64,000 bases of DNA. Origin: Maricaulis sp. (GTDB taxonomy: Bacteria > Pseudomonadota > Alphaproteobacteria > Caulobacterales > Maricaulaceae). Position numbers and translations under genes: made by a program. Shown piece by piece: positions 2,934 to 20,074 of the stretch. Within the stretch, counting starts at the first letter, position 1; each line of letters starts with the position of its first letter. The stretch is taken from positions 62,001 to 126,000 of the forward strand of contig NZ_JAEPOL010000009.1 in NCBI RefSeq assembly GCF_017642925.1, given 5' to 3'. The notes under the pieces were generated by a model that made no database searches, was not told where the DNA came from, and was given only the letters and a program-made list of their open reading frames with translations.

Positions 2934-4784
2934 TCAGTGGGCGATGCGGGAGACGATCTCGCGTTCGCAGACCGCGACCATGTTGGGCCGCCGGCACACA
3001 TCCGGGCGCGTGCCGGTTGCCTGCCAGAAATCGACCAGGCCGAACGCATCCGCCCGCTCCCACATCGCGGCTTCGGCCCACAGCGGATCGAACTCGGGAT
3101 AGTGCAGGACGACGGCGAGCTGGGACGCGCGCGCATCGAACAGCGCGATATTCTCCAGTGCCTGCGCCCAGTCCTGCGTCACGGCATGCATGCGCGCGAC
3201 CTGTGTGGTGTCGATATTGTCGCATCCGTCCAGATCGACGCGCTCGGAGACGGGAACACCGTCCCGCCGGGCTGACAGATAGGCCAGGGCACACGGGTGA
3301 GCCTCCGGCGGCAGCACGGTCTGAACGATCTCTATCGCAGCGTCCGGATCGCCGTAGTGCAGCTGGGCGACCATGGCGAGTCCCTGCAGCCGGCGGGCGT
3401 CGGGAAACAGGCGGCTTTTCTGCTCGATGAAGGCAACCGCCTCGGACGCCAGCCCGCGCTGGACAAGGGCCAGCGCCATAAAGGCGGAGGTCTGGAAATG
3501 CACCGGCCAGATCGCTTCAAGATCCTCGGCCAGCCTGAAGGCCTCGAGTTCCTGCCCGGTCTGCCGCAGGATGTCGAAATAGCGGTTCTGCACCTGCAGA
3601 CCGAGCCAGCTGGAACGGGGCAGTGTCGCGAACACCGCGACCTGCTGTGCCCGGCTGCTGCCATACATCGATGAGAGTGCTTCAGCATAGGCCAGAACAG
3701 GGGCATCGGGATCAAGCCTGCGCGCGGTATCGATCAACCCGTTCGCCGCCTCTGCGACCTGCCCGGCGCGCGAATCCGCCTGGGCAAAGAAATGCTGCTC
3801 GGGACGCGACATCAGCGCCACGGCATGCAGACCATGCATGAAGGCGCTGTCCGGGTATTGTTCCAGCAGGTCCGCCGTCAGCGTTTGCGGCTGGACAATC
3901 TGTCCGCCCGTTCGCACCAAAGCACACAGGGCAAGGAACTGGCTGACAACGCCTGTATCCGCCCCAACTCCGGGTTCGGCAAGGCTGCGCAATTCGCCCA
4001 GACAGCGCAGATCAGCGGTCAGCACCATGGCGATATGACGAACCAGATCGGCGGCCGCCCGGCCATCCCGCTCGAACGGCTGGGTCAGCAGCACAGTGCC
4101 GCTCTGCCGGTCCGTCAGATTTACGCTCAGCGGCCCGTCCTGACCGGCATTCGCGGCCTCGCCTGCAGGCACGACCGACGCCACGAATTCCGACCGGGAC
4201 GGCGTGACTGCGAATACGGCGCGATCGACATTCAGCGCCCGGAAGGCCCGGTCGAGCTCATGCCCCGTTTCGCCCGGCAGGTCGAACCGCAGTGCGACGG
4301 CACCCTCGATCAGCCCCGGCCTCGGCCAGGCGAGGAAAAGGGCAGCGAGTACGGTCAGGCCCGCGCCCCATACCCAGGCCCGGCCAAAGCGTGACGGTCC
4401 GGAGCCAGACTGGCCAGGGCGGGCGGGCTGCGGCGTCTCGCCCGTCGCCTCCAGTTCCACCACTGCGCAGGTCAGGCGATAGCCGCGCTTGGGCAGGGTC
4501 TCGACCAGGGCATCGCTGCCGAAAGCCCGCAACTCCGAGCGCAGGCGCGAGACCGCTCGCGTCAGGGCTTCGTCATTACCGATGATATCGCCCCAGACGG
4601 TGTCGAGCAGGGCCTCGCGGCGAACCCCTTCACCGGCGCGCGCGGCCAGTGTGCACAACACGTCCATCACGCGGGGTTCCATCCGGCGGTTCATCTCGCC
4701 GCGGGTCAGTGTGCCACGACCGGGATCCACCAGAATCCCGCCCAGCCGGAATGGCACTTGTATCGGCGCAGGCCGCTCGGTCAT
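2934..4784 (-). CDS. CadC-like transcriptional regulator: winged helix, one membrane span, large C-terminal TPR-like region
   Basis: Start chosen at the ATG at 4784 because GGAAGG lies just upstream; longer in-frame starts lack a ribosome-binding site. The 616-residue product has an OmpR/PhoB-type winged helix at about residues 12-105 (ending in the typical ETLPKRGYRL), a proline/glycine-rich linker, and one transmembrane helix at about 137-154. The remaining 450 residues are rich in Ala/Leu helices resembling TPR repeats. This is the layout of ToxR/CadC one-component regulators, which bind DNA from the membrane without phosphorylation; the periplasmic half presumably senses or docks something. 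It is divergent from the UrcA gene, with a 259-base shared upstream region, so it may control that gene. Confidence 0.8.
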   Translation of the reverse strand: MTERPAPIQVPFRLGGILVDPGRGTLTRGEMNRRMEPRVMDVLCTLAARAGEGVRREALLDTVWGDIIGNDEALTRAVSRLRSELRAFGSDALVETLPKRGYRLTCAVVELEATGETPQPARPGQSGSGPSRFGRAWVWGAGLTVLAALFLAWPRPGLIEGAVALRFDLPGETGHELDRAFRALNVDRAVFAVTPSRSEFVASVVPAGEAANAGQDGPLSVNLTDRQSGTVLLTQPFERDGRAAADLVRHIAMVLTADLRCLGELRSLAEPGVGADTGVVSQFLALCALVRTGGQIVQPQTLTADLLEQYPDSAFMHGLHAVALMSRPEQHFFAQADSRAGQVAEAANGLIDTARRLDPDAPVLAYAEALSSMYGSSRAQQVAVFATLPRSSWLGLQVQNRYFDILRQTGQELEAFRLAEDLEAIWPVHFQTSAFMALALVQRGLASEAVAFIEQKSRLFPDARRLQGLAMVAQLHYGDPDAAIEIVQTVLPPEAHPCALAYLSARRDGVPVSERVDLDGCDNIDTTQVARMHAVTQDWAQALENIALFDARASQLAVVLHYPEFDPLWAEAAMWERADAFGLVDFWQATGTRPDVCRRPNMVAVCEREIVSRIAH

Positions 4785-5043
4785 CCCCCACCTTCCGAAT
4801 TCTCGTATCGGGCCGACAGATTTGTCCAGGAACGGCGCAAGAGCTAGGGCCGATCGGATCAAAAAACCTGACGAAAACCTCCCGAACCGCCGATCGGTCC
4901 AATTTTTTCTGCCCCCAAATCCTTTCAGGAACGAAGTTTTCTCCAACCGTGATCGCAAAGGTTGTTTCCGTCGGGAAAGCGTCAGGACCCGACAGCCGCA
5001 ATCCGGCGAGATGTCCCGGCATCACCAGCAACGGGAGATCGTG

Positions 5044-5385
5044 ATGATCCGCACAACCAGCCTCGCCCTCGCCGCCATCCTGCTCTCCGGCACGGCGGTA
5101 CAGGCCCAACAGTCCGAGCGCGGCCAGGCCGGCCGGGACTATGTCGTCCAGAGCTACGAGCTGAGCACGGATGCCGGCCGCCGCGCGGTCCTGCGCCGTC
5201 TTGAGCGTGAAGTCGCCGCTGCCTGCGACTCGACACGCCGCATGTCGCTGCCGCGCGTCCGCGCTGCTGACAATTGTCACCAGGCCGAGCTCGATCGCGT
5301 CGTCTCCGCCCTTGGCGACCCCCGCCTTCTGGCCCTGCACCGCAATGATCGCGCGGTGCAACTCGCGAGCGCGGATCGTCACTGA
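5044..5385 (+). CDS. UrcA family exported protein
   Basis: This 113-residue protein begins at an ATG preceded by GGGAG (spacing about 7). The first 20 residues form a signal peptide ending near AVQA. The mature part has the UrcA pattern: V.SYELST.AGRRAVLRRLEREVAAAC, a second cysteine about 25 residues later, then a C-terminal helix. UrcA proteins are small periplasmic proteins common in Caulobacterales and sphingomonads with no defined biochemical role. The two cysteines probably form a disulfide (family expectation). It lies opposite the CadC-like regulator. The 171 bases after it up to the next gene show no recognised element. Confidence 0.75.
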   Translation: MIRTTSLALAAILLSGTAVQAQQSERGQAGRDYVVQSYELSTDAGRRAVLRRLEREVAAACDSTRRMSLPRVRAADNCHQAELDRVVSALGDPRLLALHRNDRAVQLASADRH

Positions 5386-5556
5386 CCGCGCGGGCCAGCC
5401 GGACGCCGCGCGGAATCCCTCCACGGCGGCGTCCCGACCGCCTGTGCTGCGGGCCATGGCCGCGCACAGGCGGTTCTTCATTGTCCACAAGCCGGTAGCA
5501 GACAGGCTCGGCTTTCGGTGCTAACCCGGATGGGAAAGAGACATTCGGGGAAAGCC

Positions 5557-7638
5557 ATGACACTGACACTTCGGCCGGCGCTGCCGGTCCTGTTCGCTGC
5601 AGCGCTGTTTGCCTGCAGCCCGGCATCGGACACAGAGACCGCGACGACAGAGACAGCCGGAACGGCCGCGCAGACCGCCGAAGCCACCCGCTTCACCGTC
5701 ATGGTCGGCGGAACGGCGATCGGCGCGCTGGAGGTTACCCCGTCCGGCGACAGCTATTCGCTGGACTACGAGTACCGCAATAATGGCCGCGGACCGACGC
5801 TGGCCGAAGAGATCACGCTGGACGGCGCCGGCATGCCGCTGAACTGGACGATCGAAGGCGCCACGACCTTCGGCAATCCGGTCGATGAAAGCTTCGAATA
5901 CGCCGACAGCGAGGCCCGCTGGACCGACACGACCGGCTCCGACCAGGCGATCCCGGCGGAGCCGGCTTTCTACGTGCCCCAGAATGCCAGCCCCTACTGG
6001 CTCGCCATCGCTGCCCGCGCCCTGATGGACAGCGAGGACATGTCGCTGCCGGCCATCCCCGGCGGCACGCTGCGCCTGGCCGAAATGGAAACGCTGGACG
6101 TCTCCGACGGCACGGATACGCGCACGGTGACCAGCTATGCCCTGTCCGGCACCTCGCTCGACCCGACCTATTTCCTGATGGACGGCCGGGCCTTCTTCGG
6201 CGTCATCAGCCCGCGCTTCTCGGTGCTGGCCGAAGGGTTCGAGGGCGAGGACGAACGCCTGCGCCAGCGCGCGACGGACTACGGTGCCCAGCGCTATGAA
6301 GACATGCAGTCGCGCTTTGCCCACAATTACGGCGCGCCGGTGCGGATCCGCAATGTGCGGGTCTTCGATTCGGTGAACGCGACTCTCGGCGAGCCGGTCT
6401 CCGTCGTAGTGGTCGACGACACGATTGCCGCCATCGAGGCGATCGATGCCGAACCTGTCGACGGCGAGGTGATCATCGACGGCAATGGCGGCACGCTGGT
6501 GCCAGGCCTGTTCGAGATGCACGGCCATGTCGGCGAGGACGACGCGATTCTCAATATCGCTGCCGGCGTCACCTCGATCCGCGACATGGGCAATGACAAT
6601 GAAGTCCTGGGCGAACTGATCGAGCGCATCCGGGCCGGCGAGATCGCGGGTCCGCGCATCTTCCGTTCCGGCTTCATCGAAGGCCGCAGCCAGTACAATT
6701 CCAATAATGGCATCATCGTCGAGAGCGAGGCGGAAGCCGTCGCCGCCGTCGAGACCTATGCCGAGGCCGGCGACTTCATCCAGATCAAGATCTACAACTC
6801 CATCAATCCGGACTGGGTGCCGGCGATGATCGAGACGGCCCACGCCAACGGGCTGCGCGTCTCCGGCCATGTCCCGGCCTTCACCAATGCCGACGCCATG
6901 ATCGCGGCCGGTTATGACGAGCTGACCCATATCAACCAGCTCATGCTGGGCTGGGTGCTGGAGGACGGCGAGGACACCCGCACCCTGCTGCGCCTGACGG
7001 CCCTGCGCCGCCTGCCCGCCCTCGACCTGCAGAGCGCGCCGGTGCAGTCGACGCTGGATGCGATGGCGGAGCGCGGTGTGGCGATCGATCCCACCTTGGC
7101 CATCCACGAAGCCCTGCTGCTGTCGCGCAATGGCCAGGTCTCGCCGGGCACGGTGGACTATATCGACCATATGCCGGTGGGCGTGCAGCGCTCGGCCCGC
7201 AGTGCCTGGGCCGATATCGCGACGCCCGAGGACGACGCCAATTACGCCGGCGCCTTCGACCAGGTCCAGGAAACCATCCGCATGATGCACGAGCGCGGCA
7301 TCTTCATGGTGCCCGGCACCGATCTGGGCGGCGCCTTCGCCTATCATCGCGAGCTGGAACTCTACCAGTCAGCCGGCATGACCCCGGCCGAGATCCTCGC
7401 CTGGGCCAGCCATGGCATGGCCGATTATCTGGGCGTTGCCGGCCGGCTCGGCTCGATCGCGCCGGGCATGCGGGCCGACTTCTTCCTGGTGCCCGGAAAT
7501 CCGGTCGAGGACCTCGCCGACATCAAGACGATCTCGCTTGTCTCGTCCGATGGCACATTCTACTACCCGACCGAAATCTATCCGGAATTCGGCATCGAAC
7601 CCTTTACCGAACTGCCCGGCGTGGCCGTTCCGAACTGA
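5557..7638 (+). CDS. Amidohydrolase-family lipoprotein
   Basis: The 693-residue product starts at ATG 5557 (GGGGAAAG upstream). Its signal peptide ends in LFAC, a lipobox, so it is likely a lipoprotein. Residues 45-280 are a beta-rich N-terminal region of unknown role. The C-terminal 420 residues form an amidohydrolase barrel: the metal pair HGH in LFEMHGHVGEDD, then AGVTSIRDMG, the ligand His of SGHVPAF, the His of ELTHINQ, and the catalytic Asp in PGTDLGGAF. The end has the usual GSIAPGMRADFFLVPGNP closing sheet. Relatives hydrolyse cyclic amides or X-Pro dipeptides; the substrate is not predictable. All metal ligands look present, so it should be active. Confidence 0.85.
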   Translation: MTLTLRPALPVLFAAALFACSPASDTETATTETAGTAAQTAEATRFTVMVGGTAIGALEVTPSGDSYSLDYEYRNNGRGPTLAEEITLDGAGMPLNWTIEGATTFGNPVDESFEYADSEARWTDTTGSDQAIPAEPAFYVPQNASPYWLAIAARALMDSEDMSLPAIPGGTLRLAEMETLDVSDGTDTRTVTSYALSGTSLDPTYFLMDGRAFFGVISPRFSVLAEGFEGEDERLRQRATDYGAQRYEDMQSRFAHNYGAPVRIRNVRVFDSVNATLGEPVSVVVVDDTIAAIEAIDAEPVDGEVIIDGNGGTLVPGLFEMHGHVGEDDAILNIAAGVTSIRDMGNDNEVLGELIERIRAGEIAGPRIFRSGFIEGRSQYNSNNGIIVESEAEAVAAVETYAEAGDFIQIKIYNSINPDWVPAMIETAHANGLRVSGHVPAFTNADAMIAAGYDELTHINQLMLGWVLEDGEDTRTLLRLTALRRLPALDLQSAPVQSTLDAMAERGVAIDPTLAIHEALLLSRNGQVSPGTVDYIDHMPVGVQRSARSAWADIATPEDDANYAGAFDQVQETIRMMHERGIFMVPGTDLGGAFAYHRELELYQSAGMTPAEILAWASHGMADYLGVAGRLGSIAPGMRADFFLVPGNPVEDLADIKTISLVSSDGTFYYPTEIYPEFGIEPFTELPGVAVPN

Positions 7639-11608: not shown

Positions 11609-14600
11609 ATGCCGCGCAACACACGCCTTTGGACCGCCAGCCGGTCGCTGACCGACACATTCCGCAACACGCTTCTGGCTACCTGTGCCGGTCTGGCCTT
11701 CATGGCGCCGGCCCTGGCCGACACAGACGGCGATCCGGGCGATGACGGCCCCATCGCCCGGGGAACGCTGCCGGAAGGCGGTACCATCGTCTACACCACC
11801 TGGCAGCCCGAGCGCCGGATCTGGATGGAATTCTACTGGGTGGTGCCGGAGGGCTATGGCGACGCCCATGGCGTGTGCCTGTCACAAAGCTATTCCACCT
11901 TTTCCTCGGCCGAGCCGGAAGCGCGAGGCAGCCTGCGCAACCAGCCGCTCAGCTTCTGCAACCGCAATGAATACGGCGAGCTGACGCCCGGCCGCGCGCC
12001 CTGGGATCGCGCCAACCGCCAGAGCGCCGAGAGCGAGCAGACAGGGTCACGCTTCATGCTGGATGATGGCGGCCGCGGCGGCAACCTCCCTCCGGCCTGC
12101 CTTCTGCCCTGGAACTGGTTCAAATGCGTGGCCGATCCCGATGCAGCGTCGGCGGCCAGCGGGGCCGGCGCCGGCACAGAGGCCCGCAGCCCCCTCGCCT
12201 TCGCCCGCGACATGCCCGTCGCGCCGCACATCATTGCCGGACCGGACACCACGATCGACGGCATTGTCGACACGGAAAACCAGTTCTCCAACGTGGTGCT
12301 GATCACCGTCGAGACGACGACCGGTGCCTCGGTGTGCACCGGCACGCTGATCAATCGCCGCCAGGTCCTGGCCGCCGCCCACTGCTTCGCCAGCGGCGAT
12401 GTCACGCGGGTCGAAGTCTCCTTCGATCCGGAGGGACAGACCGGCTATTTCGGCGCGATGAGCGTCACGGTGCACGAGAGCTATGATCCCGACACGTTCG
12501 GCGCCGATGTCGCCGTGATCACGCTGGATACCGCCTCGCTGGCCGCCGATCCGGTCACGCTGGAGGGCTCGGACGGTGCCAACACCACGGCCGGCAGCCG
12601 TATCGTGCTCGCAGGCTATGGTAGTTTCGGCACAGGCGAGACCGGTCAGCTCTCGATCGACGGGCGCCGGCGCTATGGCGTCAACACGCTCGACTTGATC
12701 GGCACCTGGGGCGATTTCTTCAACGAGATCGGCGAGCCCCTGCCGCCCATCCTGTCCGGCGAGCCCGGCAATTTCCTGTTCGTCGATTTCGACGGTCCCG
12801 GCGGGATCAACCTGCTGGGCGGCGGTGCGATCGATGGCGAGGTCTCCTCGGCCCAGGGCGACAGCGGCGGCCCGCTCTTTGCCGACACGGCCAACGGCCT
12901 GATCCAGATCGGTATCGTTTCCAACGGCAATAACCCTTATGGACCGCTGGGCGGGTATGGCACCTGGGTCGCCTATATCCCGGTCGCCGATTATATCGAC
13001 TGGATCGAGGGGCTGGATCCCTTCATCGAACGCCATGCCCTGGCCGGCGACGGCTACTGGCACGACGCCGCGCACTGGGAGTATGGCGATATACCGGAGA
13101 ACGACCGCGCCGAGCCGGGTACGACCGTCGTCACTGACGAATACATCGTGCCGGAAATCTACGAGGTCTATCTGGACGCGCCCGGCACGACTCGGGTCGC
13201 CCAGGACGAATATGTCGATGCGGTCTATGTCTTCGAGGGCGCAACCCTGATCGTCGAGGATGGCGGCCAGCTGGCGCTGGATACCGGGATCGGCATGACC
13301 GGCGGTGAAGTCCGTATCGAGGGCGATGTCATCGGCCAGGCGCTGGAACTGCATGGCGGTCTGTTCGATATCGCCGAGACCGGCAGCTATACCGACTTCT
13401 CGCCCTATTATTCCGGCGGCATGAACCTGACCGGCGCAGCGGTACGCATCGCCGGCGAGCTCGCCACCGACTGGCTGCACCAGACCGGCGGATCGCTCTG
13501 GGTGACCGAGACCGGCCTCTTCTTCGACTATCTCGGCACCATGGTCGAGGGCGGCTCGATCGGCATTGACGGGATTTTCGACACCGCCTCCTTCAACCAG
13601 TTCGGCGGCTATACCTCGATCTTCTCGAACGGCGTGCTCTACGACGCCTCCGGCTCGACCTTCATTGCCGACAGCGAGCTCTATGTCGGCGGCATCCTGG
13701 ACACGCTGGAACTGCTGATCGCCGACAGCACGGTGATGGGCGACGGCATCATCTATGCGCCCTTCGGGGTCTACCAGCTCGGCGGCACGCTGCTGCCCGG
13801 CTACAGCCTCGACGAGGAAACGCCCGGCGGATCCCTGATCATCGAGGGCGATTACCTGGCAGACGATGTCCTCTTCGTTGTCTCCACCGACGGCACGGCG
13901 ACCGATTATCTCCATGTGCTCGGCTCTGCGAATGTCGCCGGCGAGGTCTCGCTCTTCCTGCGCGGCAACGCCCCGCTCGCCCGCAACAGCCGCTTCACCT
14001 TCCTGGAGGCGGAAGGCGGTCTGACACTCGGCGATCTCACCGTTGCCGACCCGCAGATATCCCCGATGCTGTCGCTGTCACTCGGCCAGACCGCAAACTC
14101 GGCCTACCTCCAGGTCGACGCCCGCGCCTATGCCGAGTTCGCCCAGACCGACCAGCAGCGCTCGCTGGCCACGGCGCTCGACGCCGCCGCCGGCGACGAT
14201 GCGCCGAGCGGAGACTTCGCCGATCTCGTCAACACGCTGGACTACATGCCCAGCGAGGACGCGCTGCGCACCGCGCTGCAGACCGCCAATCCGGGCGACA
14301 CTTTCGCCATGAACCGGATGGGTGAAGGCCTGTCGCGGGCCATGGGTGACGTGATCGCCAGCCGCATGGCGCTGTTCGCCGAAGGCCGTCATGGCGGCGG
14401 AATGGACATGGCCGGCACCGGCAGCAGCCCGGTCCAGCTCGCCTCGGCCAATGCCGGCAGCATCGAAGTGCTCTCGGCCCTGCAGGCGGCCACCCGGGCA
14501 GCAAGTTCCGGCCGGATGGACCGGATCAATGACCGCACCGGCGTTTATGTCTCCGTCGAAGGCGGCTGGGGCGAGACCGACCTGCCCAATGGCACCACGG

Positions 14601-15340
14601 ATCTGGAAAGCCATCACATCGTCGCCGGGATCGATTTCGAACCGGCCGAAAACTGGCTGATCGGCGCCAATGCCGGTTTCTCGGACTATTCCGCCCACAG
14701 CGCGACGACCCATGTGCAGGGCGAGTCCGTGTCGCTGGCCGCCTATGCCGGCTATGCCGGATCGCGGCTCTATGGCAGCGCCTATATCGGTGCCAGCCGG
14801 CTCGACTACGATCTCACCCGCTCGATCCTGCTGGGCGCGGCCGAGATGCGGGCCACCGCCTCGACGGACGCGAACCAGTTCGATGCCGGCTTCGACATCG
14901 GTGCCGACCTGATCGAGGGCGCGGCCGTCTTCGGCCCGGTCCTGCGCCTGCGTCACGGCAATACCGATATCGACGGCTACAGCGAGACCGGTGCGGGCGT
15001 GTTCAACGCCACGCTGGCGGCGCGTGAAAACGGCCGGACCCTGCTGGGCGCCGGCGGCCGTTTCGCCAGCGGCGGCAAGACCCGGCTCTTCGGCCAGCTG
15101 ACCTGGGAACAGGATCTCTCCGAAGGCGACGGCCAGACGAGTGCCAGCCTCGCCGGCGCGCCCTCGGCCGGCTTTGCCGTGCTGGACGGCCATCATGATG
15201 ACGGCTTCGCCTCGCTGGCCCTGGGGGTCGATATCGACGCCTCCGACCGGGTCGCGATCTCGGCCCGCGCGCGCAGCGATTTCGGCCGCGACACGGATGA
15301 GGACACAGCCCTCAGCCTGGCGATCAACTGGCGTTTCTGA
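11609..15340 (+). CDS. Trypsin-like (S1) serine protease autotransporter
   Basis: This 1243-residue protein has an N-terminal signal peptide (cleavage near ALADTDG). A chymotrypsin-fold protease domain spans roughly residues 200-465, with an intact triad: H258 in AAAHCF, D300 in ADVAVITLD, S419 in GDSGGPLF. After it comes a passenger region (about 480-830) of repeated beta-strand phrases such as GATLIVEDGGQLALD and GGEVRIEGDVIG, typical of a beta-helix. The last 270 residues or so form an autotransporter beta-barrel ending in LSLAINWRF, with a terminal Phe as usual for outer-membrane proteins. It should reach the cell surface by type V secretion. A strong terminator follows. Confidence 0.9.
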   Translation: MPRNTRLWTASRSLTDTFRNTLLATCAGLAFMAPALADTDGDPGDDGPIARGTLPEGGTIVYTTWQPERRIWMEFYWVVPEGYGDAHGVCLSQSYSTFSSAEPEARGSLRNQPLSFCNRNEYGELTPGRAPWDRANRQSAESEQTGSRFMLDDGGRGGNLPPACLLPWNWFKCVADPDAASAASGAGAGTEARSPLAFARDMPVAPHIIAGPDTTIDGIVDTENQFSNVVLITVETTTGASVCTGTLINRRQVLAAAHCFASGDVTRVEVSFDPEGQTGYFGAMSVTVHESYDPDTFGADVAVITLDTASLAADPVTLEGSDGANTTAGSRIVLAGYGSFGTGETGQLSIDGRRRYGVNTLDLIGTWGDFFNEIGEPLPPILSGEPGNFLFVDFDGPGGINLLGGGAIDGEVSSAQGDSGGPLFADTANGLIQIGIVSNGNNPYGPLGGYGTWVAYIPVADYIDWIEGLDPFIERHALAGDGYWHDAAHWEYGDIPENDRAEPGTTVVTDEYIVPEIYEVYLDAPGTTRVAQDEYVDAVYVFEGATLIVEDGGQLALDTGIGMTGGEVRIEGDVIGQALELHGGLFDIAETGSYTDFSPYYSGGMNLTGAAVRIAGELATDWLHQTGGSLWVTETGLFFDYLGTMVEGGSIGIDGIFDTASFNQFGGYTSIFSNGVLYDASGSTFIADSELYVGGILDTLELLIADSTVMGDGIIYAPFGVYQLGGTLLPGYSLDEETPGGSLIIEGDYLADDVLFVVSTDGTATDYLHVLGSANVAGEVSLFLRGNAPLARNSRFTFLEAEGGLTLGDLTVADPQISPMLSLSLGQTANSAYLQVDARAYAEFAQTDQQRSLATALDAAAGDDAPSGDFADLVNTLDYMPSEDALRTALQTANPGDTFAMNRMGEGLSRAMGDVIASRMALFAEGRHGGGMDMAGTGSSPVQLASANAGSIEVLSALQAATRAASSGRMDRINDRTGVYVSVEGGWGETDLPNGTTDLESHHIVAGIDFEPAENWLIGANAGFSDYSAHSATTHVQGESVSLAAYAGYAGSRLYGSAYIGASRLDYDLTRSILLGAAEMRATASTDANQFDAGFDIGADLIEGAAVFGPVLRLRHGNTDIDGYSETGAGVFNATLAARENGRTLLGAGGRFASGGKTRLFGQLTWEQDLSEGDGQTSASLAGAPSAGFAVLDGHHDDGFASLALGVDIDASDRVAISARARSDFGRDTDEDTALSLAINWRF

Positions 15341-16784: not shown

Positions 16785-16882
16785 GAAATTACCTGCGACT
16801 AATTGTCATTTACCGAAAATGGGTTTAGGCGGTCTATCAGGGTCGGGCAAGACGTCCCGACAACAAGGCAAGGGGAATGCTT

Positions 16883-17779
16883 ATGGGTATCAAGCGCCGT
16901 ACGCGAATCTGGACCACGGTCGGCACGGCCGCCCTGCTGGGCGGTCTGGCCGGGTGTAGCGAGCCGGCCAGCGACACACCAGCGGACGAAGTGCCGCAGA
17001 GCCAGGCCGAGCAGCACGACACCAGTGCCGCAGCCGATCATGCGGCCGAGCCGGCGGCGCCGGCCGGCGGCTGGTCGGAAGGCGAAGGCGAAGGTGAAGG
17101 CGGTTCCGGCGGCGGCGAGTTCGGCATCGATCCGGCGGCTGCGGAAAGCGACCCCGTCGTCTACATGATCGCGCTGGAAGTCATGCGGGCCCACTATCTG
17201 GCCGGCATCGACGCCTACCGGGCCGGCGACCGCACGGCGGGCGCGGAAATGTTCGCCCACCCGATCAACGAGATCTATATCGACTTCGAACCCGTTCTCG
17301 AAAATCTCGGCGCGCCGATGTTCGGCGACACGATGACCGACGCTTCGGTGGCCCCCTATTCCGGCGCCGGCGAAGACGAGATTGTCGCCCGCGTCAACGA
17401 CGTGCTGGTCGCCATCGACAATGCCGCCGAGTTCGCACCGGAAAGCGATGCGTCCGAAGCCGAGGTCCATGCCCGCGTGCTGGCCGACCTGCTCGAGCGC
17501 GGCGCGCTGCAATACCGCGTTGCCGCCAGCGATGCGGCGGCAGGTGAAGCCTATCTGGACGGCTATGGCTTTGCGAAGGGCGCCGAGCGCTATGCGGCCA
17601 GCCATATCGACGTGATTGCCACCGCCAATCCGGCGCTGGCGGGCGCCTTTGCCGGCCTTGTCGACCAGCTGAACGCCGCCTTCCCGACAGCCCTGCGCCC
17701 CGACACGCTCGAGGGCGATGCCGGCGCACTCGTCAGCGCTGTTGCTGCAGCGAAGGAAACGGTTAACACCCTGCCCTGA
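16883..17779 (+). CDS. Putative lipoprotein, unknown function
   Basis: I chose the ATG at 16883 rather than 16877 because AAGGGGA abuts the first and is properly spaced for the second; the product is 298 residues. A signal peptide ends in the lipobox GGLAGC. A Thr/Ala/Glu-rich linker follows, with a run EGEGEGEGGSGGG. The folded part (about residue 75 onward) is helical: YMIALEVMRAHYLAGIDAYRAGD, AEMFAHPINEIYIDFEPVLE, RVLADLLERGALQYRVA. I do not recognise the domain. The conserved-looking His-Pro and Tyr residues recall helical periplasmic metal- or haem-binding proteins, but that is only a guess. A strong terminator follows. Confidence 0.6.
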   Translation: MGIKRRTRIWTTVGTAALLGGLAGCSEPASDTPADEVPQSQAEQHDTSAAADHAAEPAAPAGGWSEGEGEGEGGSGGGEFGIDPAAAESDPVVYMIALEVMRAHYLAGIDAYRAGDRTAGAEMFAHPINEIYIDFEPVLENLGAPMFGDTMTDASVAPYSGAGEDEIVARVNDVLVAIDNAAEFAPESDASEAEVHARVLADLLERGALQYRVAASDAAAGEAYLDGYGFAKGAERYAASHIDVIATANPALAGAFAGLVDQLNAAFPTALRPDTLEGDAGALVSAVAAAKETVNTLP

Positions 17780-18005: not shown

Positions 18006-18401
18006 ATGGACTATTTCGACGTCAACAATTTCATGCCCCATGGCATGTGCTACCTGTGGCGGCCGGAACTGGTGGGCATGCATGTGATTGCCGACCTGGC
18101 GATCGCCTTGGCCTATTTCTCCATTCCGATCGTCATCGTGCTGTTCCTGCGGCGGCTGAACCGGCCCATCCCCTTCCGCTGGGCCTTCGTGATGTTCGGG
18201 ATCTTCATCCTGTTCTGCGGCATCAATCACCTCATGAACATCGTCGTGCTGTGGCATCCGCTCTACTATGTCGAAGGCGCCCTGAAACTGCTCACGGCAG
18301 CAGCCTCGGTCGCCACCGCCGTGCTGATGCTGCCCCTGCTGCCGGTCCTTATCGACCGCTTCACCCGTCTGGCTGCTGAAGACGATATGGACAGCGCATG
18401 A
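18006..18401 (+). CDS. Stand-alone ethylene-binding-domain protein (ETR1-like membrane sensor)
   Basis: This 131-residue membrane protein is the ETR1-type ethylene-binding domain and almost nothing else. Three helices are visible: about 24-48, 58-82 and 90-115. The key residues known from the plant receptor are all present: the Asp of helix 1 (D30), the Tyr in LAYFSIP (Y37), the Ile one turn before the Cys (I68), and the Cu(I) ligands C71 and H75 in FCGINHLMN. Flanking residues IALAYFSIP, FRW and FG.FI..CG..HL also match the plant proteins as I remember them. Its stop codon overlaps the start of the histidine kinase (ATGA), so the pair is probably one split receptor. Signal-binding itself is inferred from residue conservation. 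Confidence 0.85.
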   Translation: MDYFDVNNFMPHGMCYLWRPELVGMHVIADLAIALAYFSIPIVIVLFLRRLNRPIPFRWAFVMFGIFILFCGINHLMNIVVLWHPLYYVEGALKLLTAAASVATAVLMLPLLPVLIDRFTRLAAEDDMDSA

Positions 18402-20074
18402 ACCTCACCCGGCCCGATACAGCCAGCAGCACTCAGCCAGACGGAGCGCGCTATGAAACGCTCAGCGGCCTGCTGGAAGCCTATCGCACGCCGGTTGCTA
18501 TCATCCTGTTCGGGGTCATCGTCTCCCTCGCGCTCTTCTTTGCCACCCTTCTGGGGCACAGCCGGGCCAAGGAGCGCGAATTCCGCAATCACGCCGCGGC
18601 GCGCATTGCAGAAATCGAGACAGGCTTCACCGCGATCGAGGCCGAGCTGACCGAGCTGGCCAACGCTGTCGATGCCGGGCTGGCACCGCAGACCGTGATC
18701 GAGATATTCGGAGTCGCCGATGGCGAAGTGGCAACACCGCCCGTGCGCGATCTCGGACTGGTCTCCCGGGACGCGGCCCTTCATGCCATCGACGCCGGCA
18801 CGGCGCGTCAGGTCCAGCGCGCCATCGCCTATATGCTGGAACGCGGCCCGGCACCGCAGACCCTCGTCCTCCTGCCCCTGCCCGCCGCCGCGCCCGGCGA
18901 GGTGCCTTTCGTGCTTGTCGCCCCGCTTTCGTCCGGGCCCTATGCCTACGCCTATGTCACCTCGGATTTCGACGCCTTGGTGCAGCCGACCGAATTGCGA
19001 TCCGATCCGGCCTGGGTGATTTCCAGCCTCCATGACGGCAGTCCGCAATTTGCCCTCGCCCGCAATGTCGACCTGCGGGCCCGGACCACGCCGGCCATGA
19101 TGGGCGTCATCTCCGTGCTCGACACGGCGCCCTACGCCCTGCACTGGACGGGCGACGCGCCGTTCGATGTGGTCGATATCGCCATCGTGCCGCGGCGCAC
19201 CTACCTGCTCCAGTTCGGTCCCCTGCCCTGGCTGGTGCTGGCCTTCTGCCTGTTCGCCACAGCGGCAATCGGCACGCTGTCGCTCAAGGATGCGCGGCGG
19301 ACCGCCGAGATCCGCCGGCAGGTCGATCTGAAAACCGCCGAACTGCGCCGCAGCCAGGCCGTCATCGAAGCCAAGAACGAGGAGCTGGCGCGCTTTGCCG
19401 CCCATGCCTCGCACGACCTGCAGGCGCCCCTGCGCGCGATGAAGGGCATGTCCTCCCTGCTCGTCGAACGCCAGATCGACCTGGACGACCGCAGCCAGCA
19501 GATGCTGCAGCGGATAAATCGCGGTGCCGACCGGGCCCAGCGCCTGGTCCAGGACCTGCTGTCCTACACCAAGGCCGACATGGCGCAGGTCAATGCCGAA
19601 CCGATCCCGCCGGAGACCCTGCGCAGCGAGATCGACGAATTGCTCGCCGCGACGGTCGAGGAGTGCGGCGGCCAGCTGCGCTGGCAGGTCGATGCGCCGG
19701 TCGAGGCCGACCGTTTCCTGCTGACGCGGGCGCTGCAGAATCTCGTCTCGAATGCCATCAAGTATCGCGCCGACCGGCCGCTGCGGATCGATGTCACGGC
19801 GCGCACCGATCAGTACGGGACCACCCTCTGCGTGTCGGACAATGGCATGGGGATCGAACCGAAATATTTCGAGCGCATCTTCCGCGTCTTCGAACGCCTG
19901 CACGGTGCCGACGAAATCGAGGGTTCCGGGATCGGCCTGGCGCTGTGCAAACGTGTCGCCGACCTGCATGGCGGCCGGATCTGGGTGGAATCGGAGCCCG
20001 GCGTGGGCAGTCATTTCTTCCTGCACATTCCCAGCGCCGAAGCGCCGCGCGCCGCCATCTCCAACGATCGCTGA
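18398..20074 (+). CDS. Sensor histidine kinase coupled to the ethylene-binding-domain protein
   Basis: At 558 residues, it has a transmembrane helix at about 33-53, an extracytoplasmic region of about 220 residues (CHASE-like by position, not identified), and a second helix at about 270-290. A coiled linker follows (EIRRQVDLKTAELRRSQ), then HisKA with the H-box ASHDLQAPLRAMKG. The ATPase domain has N-box LQNLVSNAIKY, G1 DNGMGIE, F-box FERIFRVFERLHG, and G2 GSGIGLALCKRV. This is the phytochrome-like kinase class (ASHDLQAPL). Its ATG lies within the stop of the ethylene-binding gene, implying coupled translation and complex formation. No response regulator follows directly. Confidence 0.9.
   Translation: MNLTRPDTASSTQPDGARYETLSGLLEAYRTPVAIILFGVIVSLALFFATLLGHSRAKEREFRNHAAARIAEIETGFTAIEAELTELANAVDAGLAPQTVIEIFGVADGEVATPPVRDLGLVSRDAALHAIDAGTARQVQRAIAYMLERGPAPQTLVLLPLPAAAPGEVPFVLVAPLSSGPYAYAYVTSDFDALVQPTELRSDPAWVISSLHDGSPQFALARNVDLRARTTPAMMGVISVLDTAPYALHWTGDAPFDVVDIAIVPRRTYLLQFGPLPWLVLAFCLFATAAIGTLSLKDARRTAEIRRQVDLKTAELRRSQAVIEAKNEELARFAAHASHDLQAPLRAMKGMSSLLVERQIDLDDRSQQMLQRINRGADRAQRLVQDLLSYTKADMAQVNAEPIPPETLRSEIDELLAATVEECGGQLRWQVDAPVEADRFLLTRALQNLVSNAIKYRADRPLRIDVTARTDQYGTTLCVSDNGMGIEPKYFERIFRVFERLHGADEIEGSGIGLALCKRVADLHGGRIWVESEPGVGSHFFLHIPSAEAPRAAISNDR

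Follow-up and report, generated by a model that had tools for sequence, protein, structure and literature searches.

A stand-alone ethylene-binding domain is encoded ahead of a membrane histidine kinase

The stretch of Maricaulis DNA analyzed here, 64,000 nucleotides long and referred to below as the window, carries two overlapping genes on its + strand. The first (18006..18401) encodes a 131-aa protein with three transmembrane (TM) helices, and the second (18398..20074) encodes a 558-aa transmembrane sensor histidine kinase that is its presumptive partner subunit. The two open reading frames share a four-base ATGA overlap (18398..18401, + strand), an arrangement that likely couples their translation and that differs from the single polypeptide of characterized ethylene receptors.

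By sequence, the 131-aa protein qualifies as a complete ethylene-binding domain (EBD) of the ETR1 type, with all seven ethylene-site residues present. It matches Pfam ETR1_N (PF25487) over positions 2-95 of 97 with 118.6 bits (E 1.4e-34, cut-off 27), and it is the sole ETR1_N match in its own genome at E 0.001. Residues D30, Y37, I40, P41, I68, C71 and H75 (DYIPICH) occupy the seven ethylene-site positions, where the equivalence was set without an ETR1 sequence in the alignment and where we take Y32 of ETR1 to be the seventh site residue. The remaining ETR1 site residues are given in the accessible text of their source as D25, I35, P36, I62, C65 and H69 (PMC6586836). Alignment to the EBD of Azospirillum brasilense, a characterized domain since ethylene binding is reported for AzoEtr1(1-130) in the available part of that study (PMC11819568), reveals that all seven site residues are common to both proteins. 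AlphaFold2 modeling places long helices at residues 20-50, 58-83 and 87-130 (mean pLDDT 85.2), and the model and a hydropathy scan together indicate three membrane helices. The N-terminal Cys15 is conserved in at least 90% of 73 EBDs. No PDB match to the EBD was found by sequence at E 1, and a fold search with its model returned nothing at E 0.001.

The partner kinase has a membrane-spanning sensor half of its own

Five segments of the kinase, all on the + strand, precede or form its catalytic core. Residues 22-60 (18461..18577) comprise TM1 and a conserved AYRxPTxIxxxGLIxS block, which is proposed as the docking face for the EBD. An extracytoplasmic domain follows (18578..19207), then TM2 with a linker (19208..19372), the HisKA dimerization and phospho-acceptor domain containing H339 (19385..19579) and the HATPase_c ATP-binding domain (19709..20035). 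Pfam scores for HisKA (52.4 bits) and HATPase_c (88.5 bits) both exceed their cut-offs, and H339, N448, N452, D481, G483, G485, G509, G511 and G513 are invariant among 17 homologues. The hydropathy scan locates TM helices near residues 33-51 and 278-296; a third segment, at 156-174, lies inside the outside domain and was taken as false. The AlphaFold2 model (mean pLDDT 78.7, pTM 0.46) presents a long TM1 helix, an alpha/beta domain, TM2 and a kinase core. An earlier note, drawn from the DNA letters and their translations, had described a 131-residue three-helix protein with the key EBD residues, followed by a kinase with two helices, an extracytoplasmic domain and a complete HisKA/ATPase core; profile scores, site residues, predicted helices and invariant motifs bear out both descriptions.

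The sensor halves of 17 of the 18 partner kinases collected below can be aligned and share a common TM1 block. Within this block of the resulting sensor profile (A3), Y8, G18, F26, L30 and F41 are invariant and P11 is nearly so; a tryptophan preceding TM2 is also invariant in the aligned sensor halves. Profile comparison by hhalign links the Maricaulis sensors to those from the order of genome G275 (probability 96.4, E 1.3e-9); with G828 and G172 the comparison gives a probability of 87.5 (E 3.6e-6).

The outside domain is Cache/CHASE-like at best. That of the window kinase matches no Pfam family at E 0.5. Among the 17 members, a weak match to CHASE (PF03924) appears in one (E 0.0052) and weak matches to dCache_1 (PF02743) in three (best E 6e-6), the window kinase giving neither; the G275 domain reaches 27 bits against dCache_1, below the cut-off of 45. 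The best PDB profile match is the AHK4 sensor, itself weak at E 0.07, and the best 50 rows of a fold search were dominated by kinase cores.

Split receptors form a recurrent subfamily

To follow the domain beyond the window, PF25487 was surveyed in several overlapping genome samples. Nine of 41 relatives exceed the cut-off, namely eight Maricaulis and G022, which carries a fused frame. The larger samples gave 27 of 385 genomes for the class, 28 of 398 for the phylum, 13 of 142 for the order of G275 and 35 of 398 for the window's own order. Eighteen stand-alone EBDs emerge: those of the eight Maricaulis, that of G172 (the single genome of its order in the data), those of eight genomes in the order of G275, where 13 in all have an EBD, and a divergent one in G044. 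The earlier note had judged a split design to be unusual, and the surveys agree. The remaining 27 of the 35 EBD genomes in the window's own order have the domain in frames of at least 358 aa, every phylum-sample match except the window's sits in a frame of at least 401 aa, and the other matches across all surveys lie in frames of at least 358 aa, bar two that seem broken. Six Maricaulis loci have EBDs 79-87% identical to that of the window, and they belong to M. parjimensis DSM 16078, M. alexandrii, M. maris DSM 4734 and three MAGs. Four further weak Maricaulis matches (L010-L013, 20-23 bits) were dropped as other proteins: three fall within or close to long frames with many helices that do not resemble an EBD, and the fourth falls in a 107-aa frame with the same ending, DUF2306-like by eye.

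Inspection of the 18 loci reveals that a kinase adjoins the stand-alone EBD in every case, beginning between -20 and +13 nt relative to the EBD stop and in varying frames, where kinase starts were selected by hand from ATG, GTG or TTG near that stop and four Maricaulis starts are TTG. Each of these kinases has its own two membrane segments. Fused receptors are built otherwise. In 55 of 56 fused frames no hydrophobic segment follows the EBD, and the segment in the remaining frame is borderline (1.62). Of the 56, 23 extend beyond the 1500 bases examined, so that their ends lie outside this comparison. Of these frames 47 match HisKA and 29 match PAS, and none matches CHASE or dCache at E 0.001.

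A tree of the EBDs places all 18 stand-alone domains on one side of a single branch (support 99/98, recovered in all of 200 bootstrap trees), with the caveats that the bootstrap had not fully settled, that the alignment has 118 columns and that some branches are long. When 21 fused domains from the window's own order were added and G044 was left out, a quick method again grouped the 17 stand-alone domains (SH-aLRT 96). The small gene is under purifying selection, as dN/dS ranges from 0.03 to 0.15 over the 28 pairs of the eight Maricaulis copies, although these ratios are rough because silent sites approach saturation (pS 0.53-0.65).

These observations bear on whether the pair is simply what remains of a fused receptor after a frameshift or a sequencing error. 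A gene of that description does occur in the class survey, where G100 looks like a broken fused gene. For the window pair we regard the idea as barely credible, given that 18 genomes each carry such a pair, with spacings that fall in all three frames, that the kinases have a TM1, an outside domain and a TM2 of their own where 55 of 56 fused frames lack any membrane segment after the EBD, that dN/dS is low, and that the split EBDs keep to a single side of one branch. On sequence grounds, a frameshift artifact is refuted for the 18-pair set. Because pairs recur in other orders, stand-alone EBDs fall on one side of a branch and fused frames lack the membrane segment, the EBD/kinase pair, as read from its genes, is a split-receptor subfamily, neither a frameshift nor a one-off. 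At least three orders share the layout, the window's own and two others of its class, with 17 pairs of a related kinase type together with the divergent G044.

Several loci at the margins of this set merit description. G100 itself was dropped from the stand-alone set, with its 195-aa frame and a kinase in the next frame without TM1; its locus (L080, about 4468-6297, - strand) reads as a fused EBD-kinase seemingly frameshifted twice, either a sequencing error or a pseudogene. G233:C31 was likewise dropped for an internal stop and a contig end. G044 (L078:5332-7172) encodes a divergent EBD-like protein, with Asn replacing Asp, that overlaps a kinase which by eye is CHASE3-like, and it is possibly an independent split. 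The single genome G828 (L102 and L109) combines both forms, a fused EBD frame and a pair whose EBD stands alone. Nineteen named plasmid records also carry an EBD; in the eight of these 19 that were inspected, the frame is at least 298 aa long and continues past the EBD, and no split EBD was seen. The sensor half of the window kinase has no plasmid match at E 0.001. On an Acaryochloris plasmid (L187, about 3462-5180) the EBD frame breaks off where an IS1 transposase is annotated; an ATP-binding protein lies past the transposase, and the arrangement looks like an interrupted fused receptor.

The two genes are present and absent together

Among 19 Maricaulis genomes, the EBD is present in eight, and the kinase sensor half is present in exactly the same eight, where a 355-aa sensor query matched over at least residues 16-354; G016 gave one further match of 42 residues near HisKA. 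The downstream gene, trhO, is present in all 19. In G013, G015 and G006 the upstream and downstream neighbors adjoin and both genes of the pair are absent. On a trhO tree of 18 genomes, which leaves out G008 since its contig ends inside trhO and its absence is uninformative, the presence of the pair requires at least four changes. Full-length matches to A3 occur in three of 385 class genomes, the very three that carry a clear stand-alone EBD (G044 excepted), and in eight of 142 genomes in the order of G275, again exactly those with a stand-alone EBD. The matching kinases are themselves rows of the profile, and the informative part of this result is the absence of full-strength matches elsewhere. 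The earlier note had staked its reading on the two genes being kept together in related genomes, and they are, both in adjacency (18/18) and in the matched eight of 19 Maricaulis.

Partial sensor matches extend further. Two class-sample genomes that lack a stand-alone EBD match A3 in part (G415, 30.6 bits; G388, 26.6 bits), and in the order of G275 weaker or part matches occur in 24 genomes that gave no EBD match, led by G788 (75 and 41 bits) with the rest up to 51 bits. Loci of six of these 24 were fetched for ORF reading, and upstream of the G788 kinase there is no EBD-like ORF among same-strand ORFs of at least 85 aa. Such weaker sensor matches without an EBD indicate that the kinase type does not need one.

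The genes could also be co-transcribed neighbors rather than parts of one receptor, with the EBD acting alone or on another kinase. We consider this very improbable, since the genes appear and disappear jointly at one site with at least four changes on the trhO tree, since the same pairing is found in three orders whose other neighbors differ, and since EBD and sensor distances are correlated (Mantel r 0.72, permutation p 1e-4, 17 pairs), a correlation to which shared species descent contributes.

The ethylene site is retained in most stand-alone domains

All seven site residues are kept in 15 of the 18 stand-alone EBDs, including all eight from Maricaulis, and in 39 of 55 fused EBDs. The fused set excludes hits below 60 bits with the custom HMM, frames shorter than 300 aa, duplicates, one partial EBD, hits lacking a locus and fused hits from the later own-order survey. 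Variation of these residues in close homologues, which the earlier note named as fatal to its proposal, was thus not encountered. The three stand-alone exceptions read EYVPIGH in G891, GIMALSE in G863 and NYIPICH in G044. The EBDs of G863 (L108:1948-2391) and G891 (L107:7731-8249) have lost the copper cysteine, that of G863 additionally lacks the histidine, and the operon position of both is unchanged.

G863 and G891, having lost the copper cysteine, show that an EBD subunit can outlive its binding site. They raise the possibility that the EBD chiefly supports the structure or folding of the kinase, as a pseudo-receptor in which ligand binding is secondary and dispensable; this would suit two genomes that retain the subunit in the same operon position. 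We find this quite unlikely, as the site is invariant in the eight Maricaulis proteins and the gene evolves under the low dN/dS noted above. Alternatively, the small protein might sense Cu(I) or redox conditions, or be an accessory subunit for that purpose, with copper at the Cys/His site signaling metal or redox status and ethylene not serving as the physiological ligand. In ETR1, Cu(I) is bound by the equivalent Cys and His according to the accessible account (PMC6586836), and a Pfam scan of four neighboring proteins yielded none related to ethylene; equally, none of those four is a recognizable copper gene, and the Asp, Tyr, Ile, Pro and Ile that accompany the copper ligands are kept in 15 of 18 proteins, as expected if ethylene binding matters. 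A copper or redox role of this kind is unlikely in our estimation, if less so than the pseudo-receptor. The ligand of the EBD is probably ethylene held on Cu(I), with copper or another small ligand as alternatives.

Segments of the pair evolve at different rates. Within Maricaulis, mean pN comes to 0.090 in the EBD and 0.147 in trhO; across the kinase it is 0.148 in TM1, 0.456 in the outside domain, 0.223 in TM2 with the linker and 0.228 in the core. TM1 has the lowest value of the four kinase segments compared, at a level of conservation no higher than that of the ordinary neighbor trhO. A well-conserved EBD beside a drifting outside domain suggests that the EBD is the main input of the Maricaulis receptor. 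The earlier note had also envisaged a periplasmic signal entering through the kinase itself; that part is weakly supported in Maricaulis, where the outside domain is the fastest-changing part of the pair.

Comparison with known receptors

In the portions of the literature available to us, characterized ethylene receptors are single fused proteins, in contrast to the two separate proteins of the window. AzoEtr1 of A. brasilense shares with the window pair the seven EBD residues, a histidine kinase output and an alphaproteobacterial host, yet its EBD is described as fused to PAS and kinase domains in one 525-aa chain with no separate EBD subunit (PMC11819568, accessible text). SynEtr1 (slr1212) of Synechocystis likewise combines an EBD with a kinase and has a second input, light, but it is fused and, in the available descriptions, that input is a cyanobacteriochrome rather than an outside domain (PMC6682694, PMC7700396). 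Plant ETR1 resembles the window EBD in its three helices, forming a Cu(I) EBD dimer built on Cys65/His69, whereas its sensor is joined to GAF and further domains in a single chain, with no split gene pair in the text available (PMC6586836).

The window kinase has the TM1, alpha/beta outside domain, TM2, HisKA and HATPase order of Cache/CHASE-type sensor kinases and differs from them by its separate EBD subunit. Control of a membrane sensor kinase by a separate protein is also known from QseG-QseE, SpdC and ScrA-SaeS; among the matches listed, the abstracts describe none of these accessory partners as an EBD. An open-literature search of titles and abstract openings found no stand-alone or split EBD among the matches listed, which does not establish absence in print.

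A model for control of the kinase in trans

We think it rather probable that the pair encodes a two-subunit receptor, in which a free ETR1-type Cu(I)/ethylene sensor would act through TM1 on the downstream kinase dimer. The 131-aa EBD protein, with its nearly invariant N-terminal Cys15, would probably dimerize; Cys71 and His75 would bind Cu(I), and ethylene or a similar small ligand would be held on that copper. The EBD would then rest against TM1 of the kinase dimer, TM1 being the likely contact because its block is conserved, and would shift the TM1/TM2 helices such that autophosphorylation at His339 goes up or down. The signal would pass to a response regulator, which in Maricaulis must be encoded elsewhere, as none was found beside the pair. 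In eight genomes of the order of G275, two genes that by eye are of receiver type follow the pair, and Pfam identifies those in G275 as a single-domain receiver and a receiver-kinase. The two-subunit receptor was first put forward in the earlier note. What the sequences show is a conserved pair of genes that occur or are missing jointly, with an intact site and with the catalytic motifs of a kinase; copper and ethylene binding, the complex, the TM1 contact and the direction of control are inferred.

A broader scenario is possible but doubtful. The pairs may represent an old, separate alphaproteobacterial ethylene-sensing lineage, in which the EBD came to exist as an independent subunit that can be transferred and that docks on TM1 of Cache/CHASE-like kinases and places them under copper/ethylene control in trans. 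One kinase could then read both a membrane-dissolved gas and a periplasmic ligand, and some descendants (G863, G891) would be ligand-free pseudo-receptors.

How ethylene binding is transferred from membrane helices to a kinase is still modeled rather than solved in the ethylene-receptor literature available to us. A natural two-piece receptor would allow sensor and kinase to be made apart, mixed, mutated and reconstituted, and a stand-alone EBD offers a small target for determining an EBD structure. The pair further hints that marine bacteria, among them named strains like M. maris DSM 4734, may sense ethylene.

Other genes near the pair

Upstream of the pair, the window encodes a 300-aa lipoprotein-like protein (16877-17779) with a variable SEGEGEGEG tract and no Pfam family at E 0.001; in three Maricaulis without the pair, this gene stands directly before trhO. 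Further upstream, a 1243-aa ORF (11609-15340) appears by eye to encode a secreted trypsin-like protease with an autotransporter-type C-terminus.
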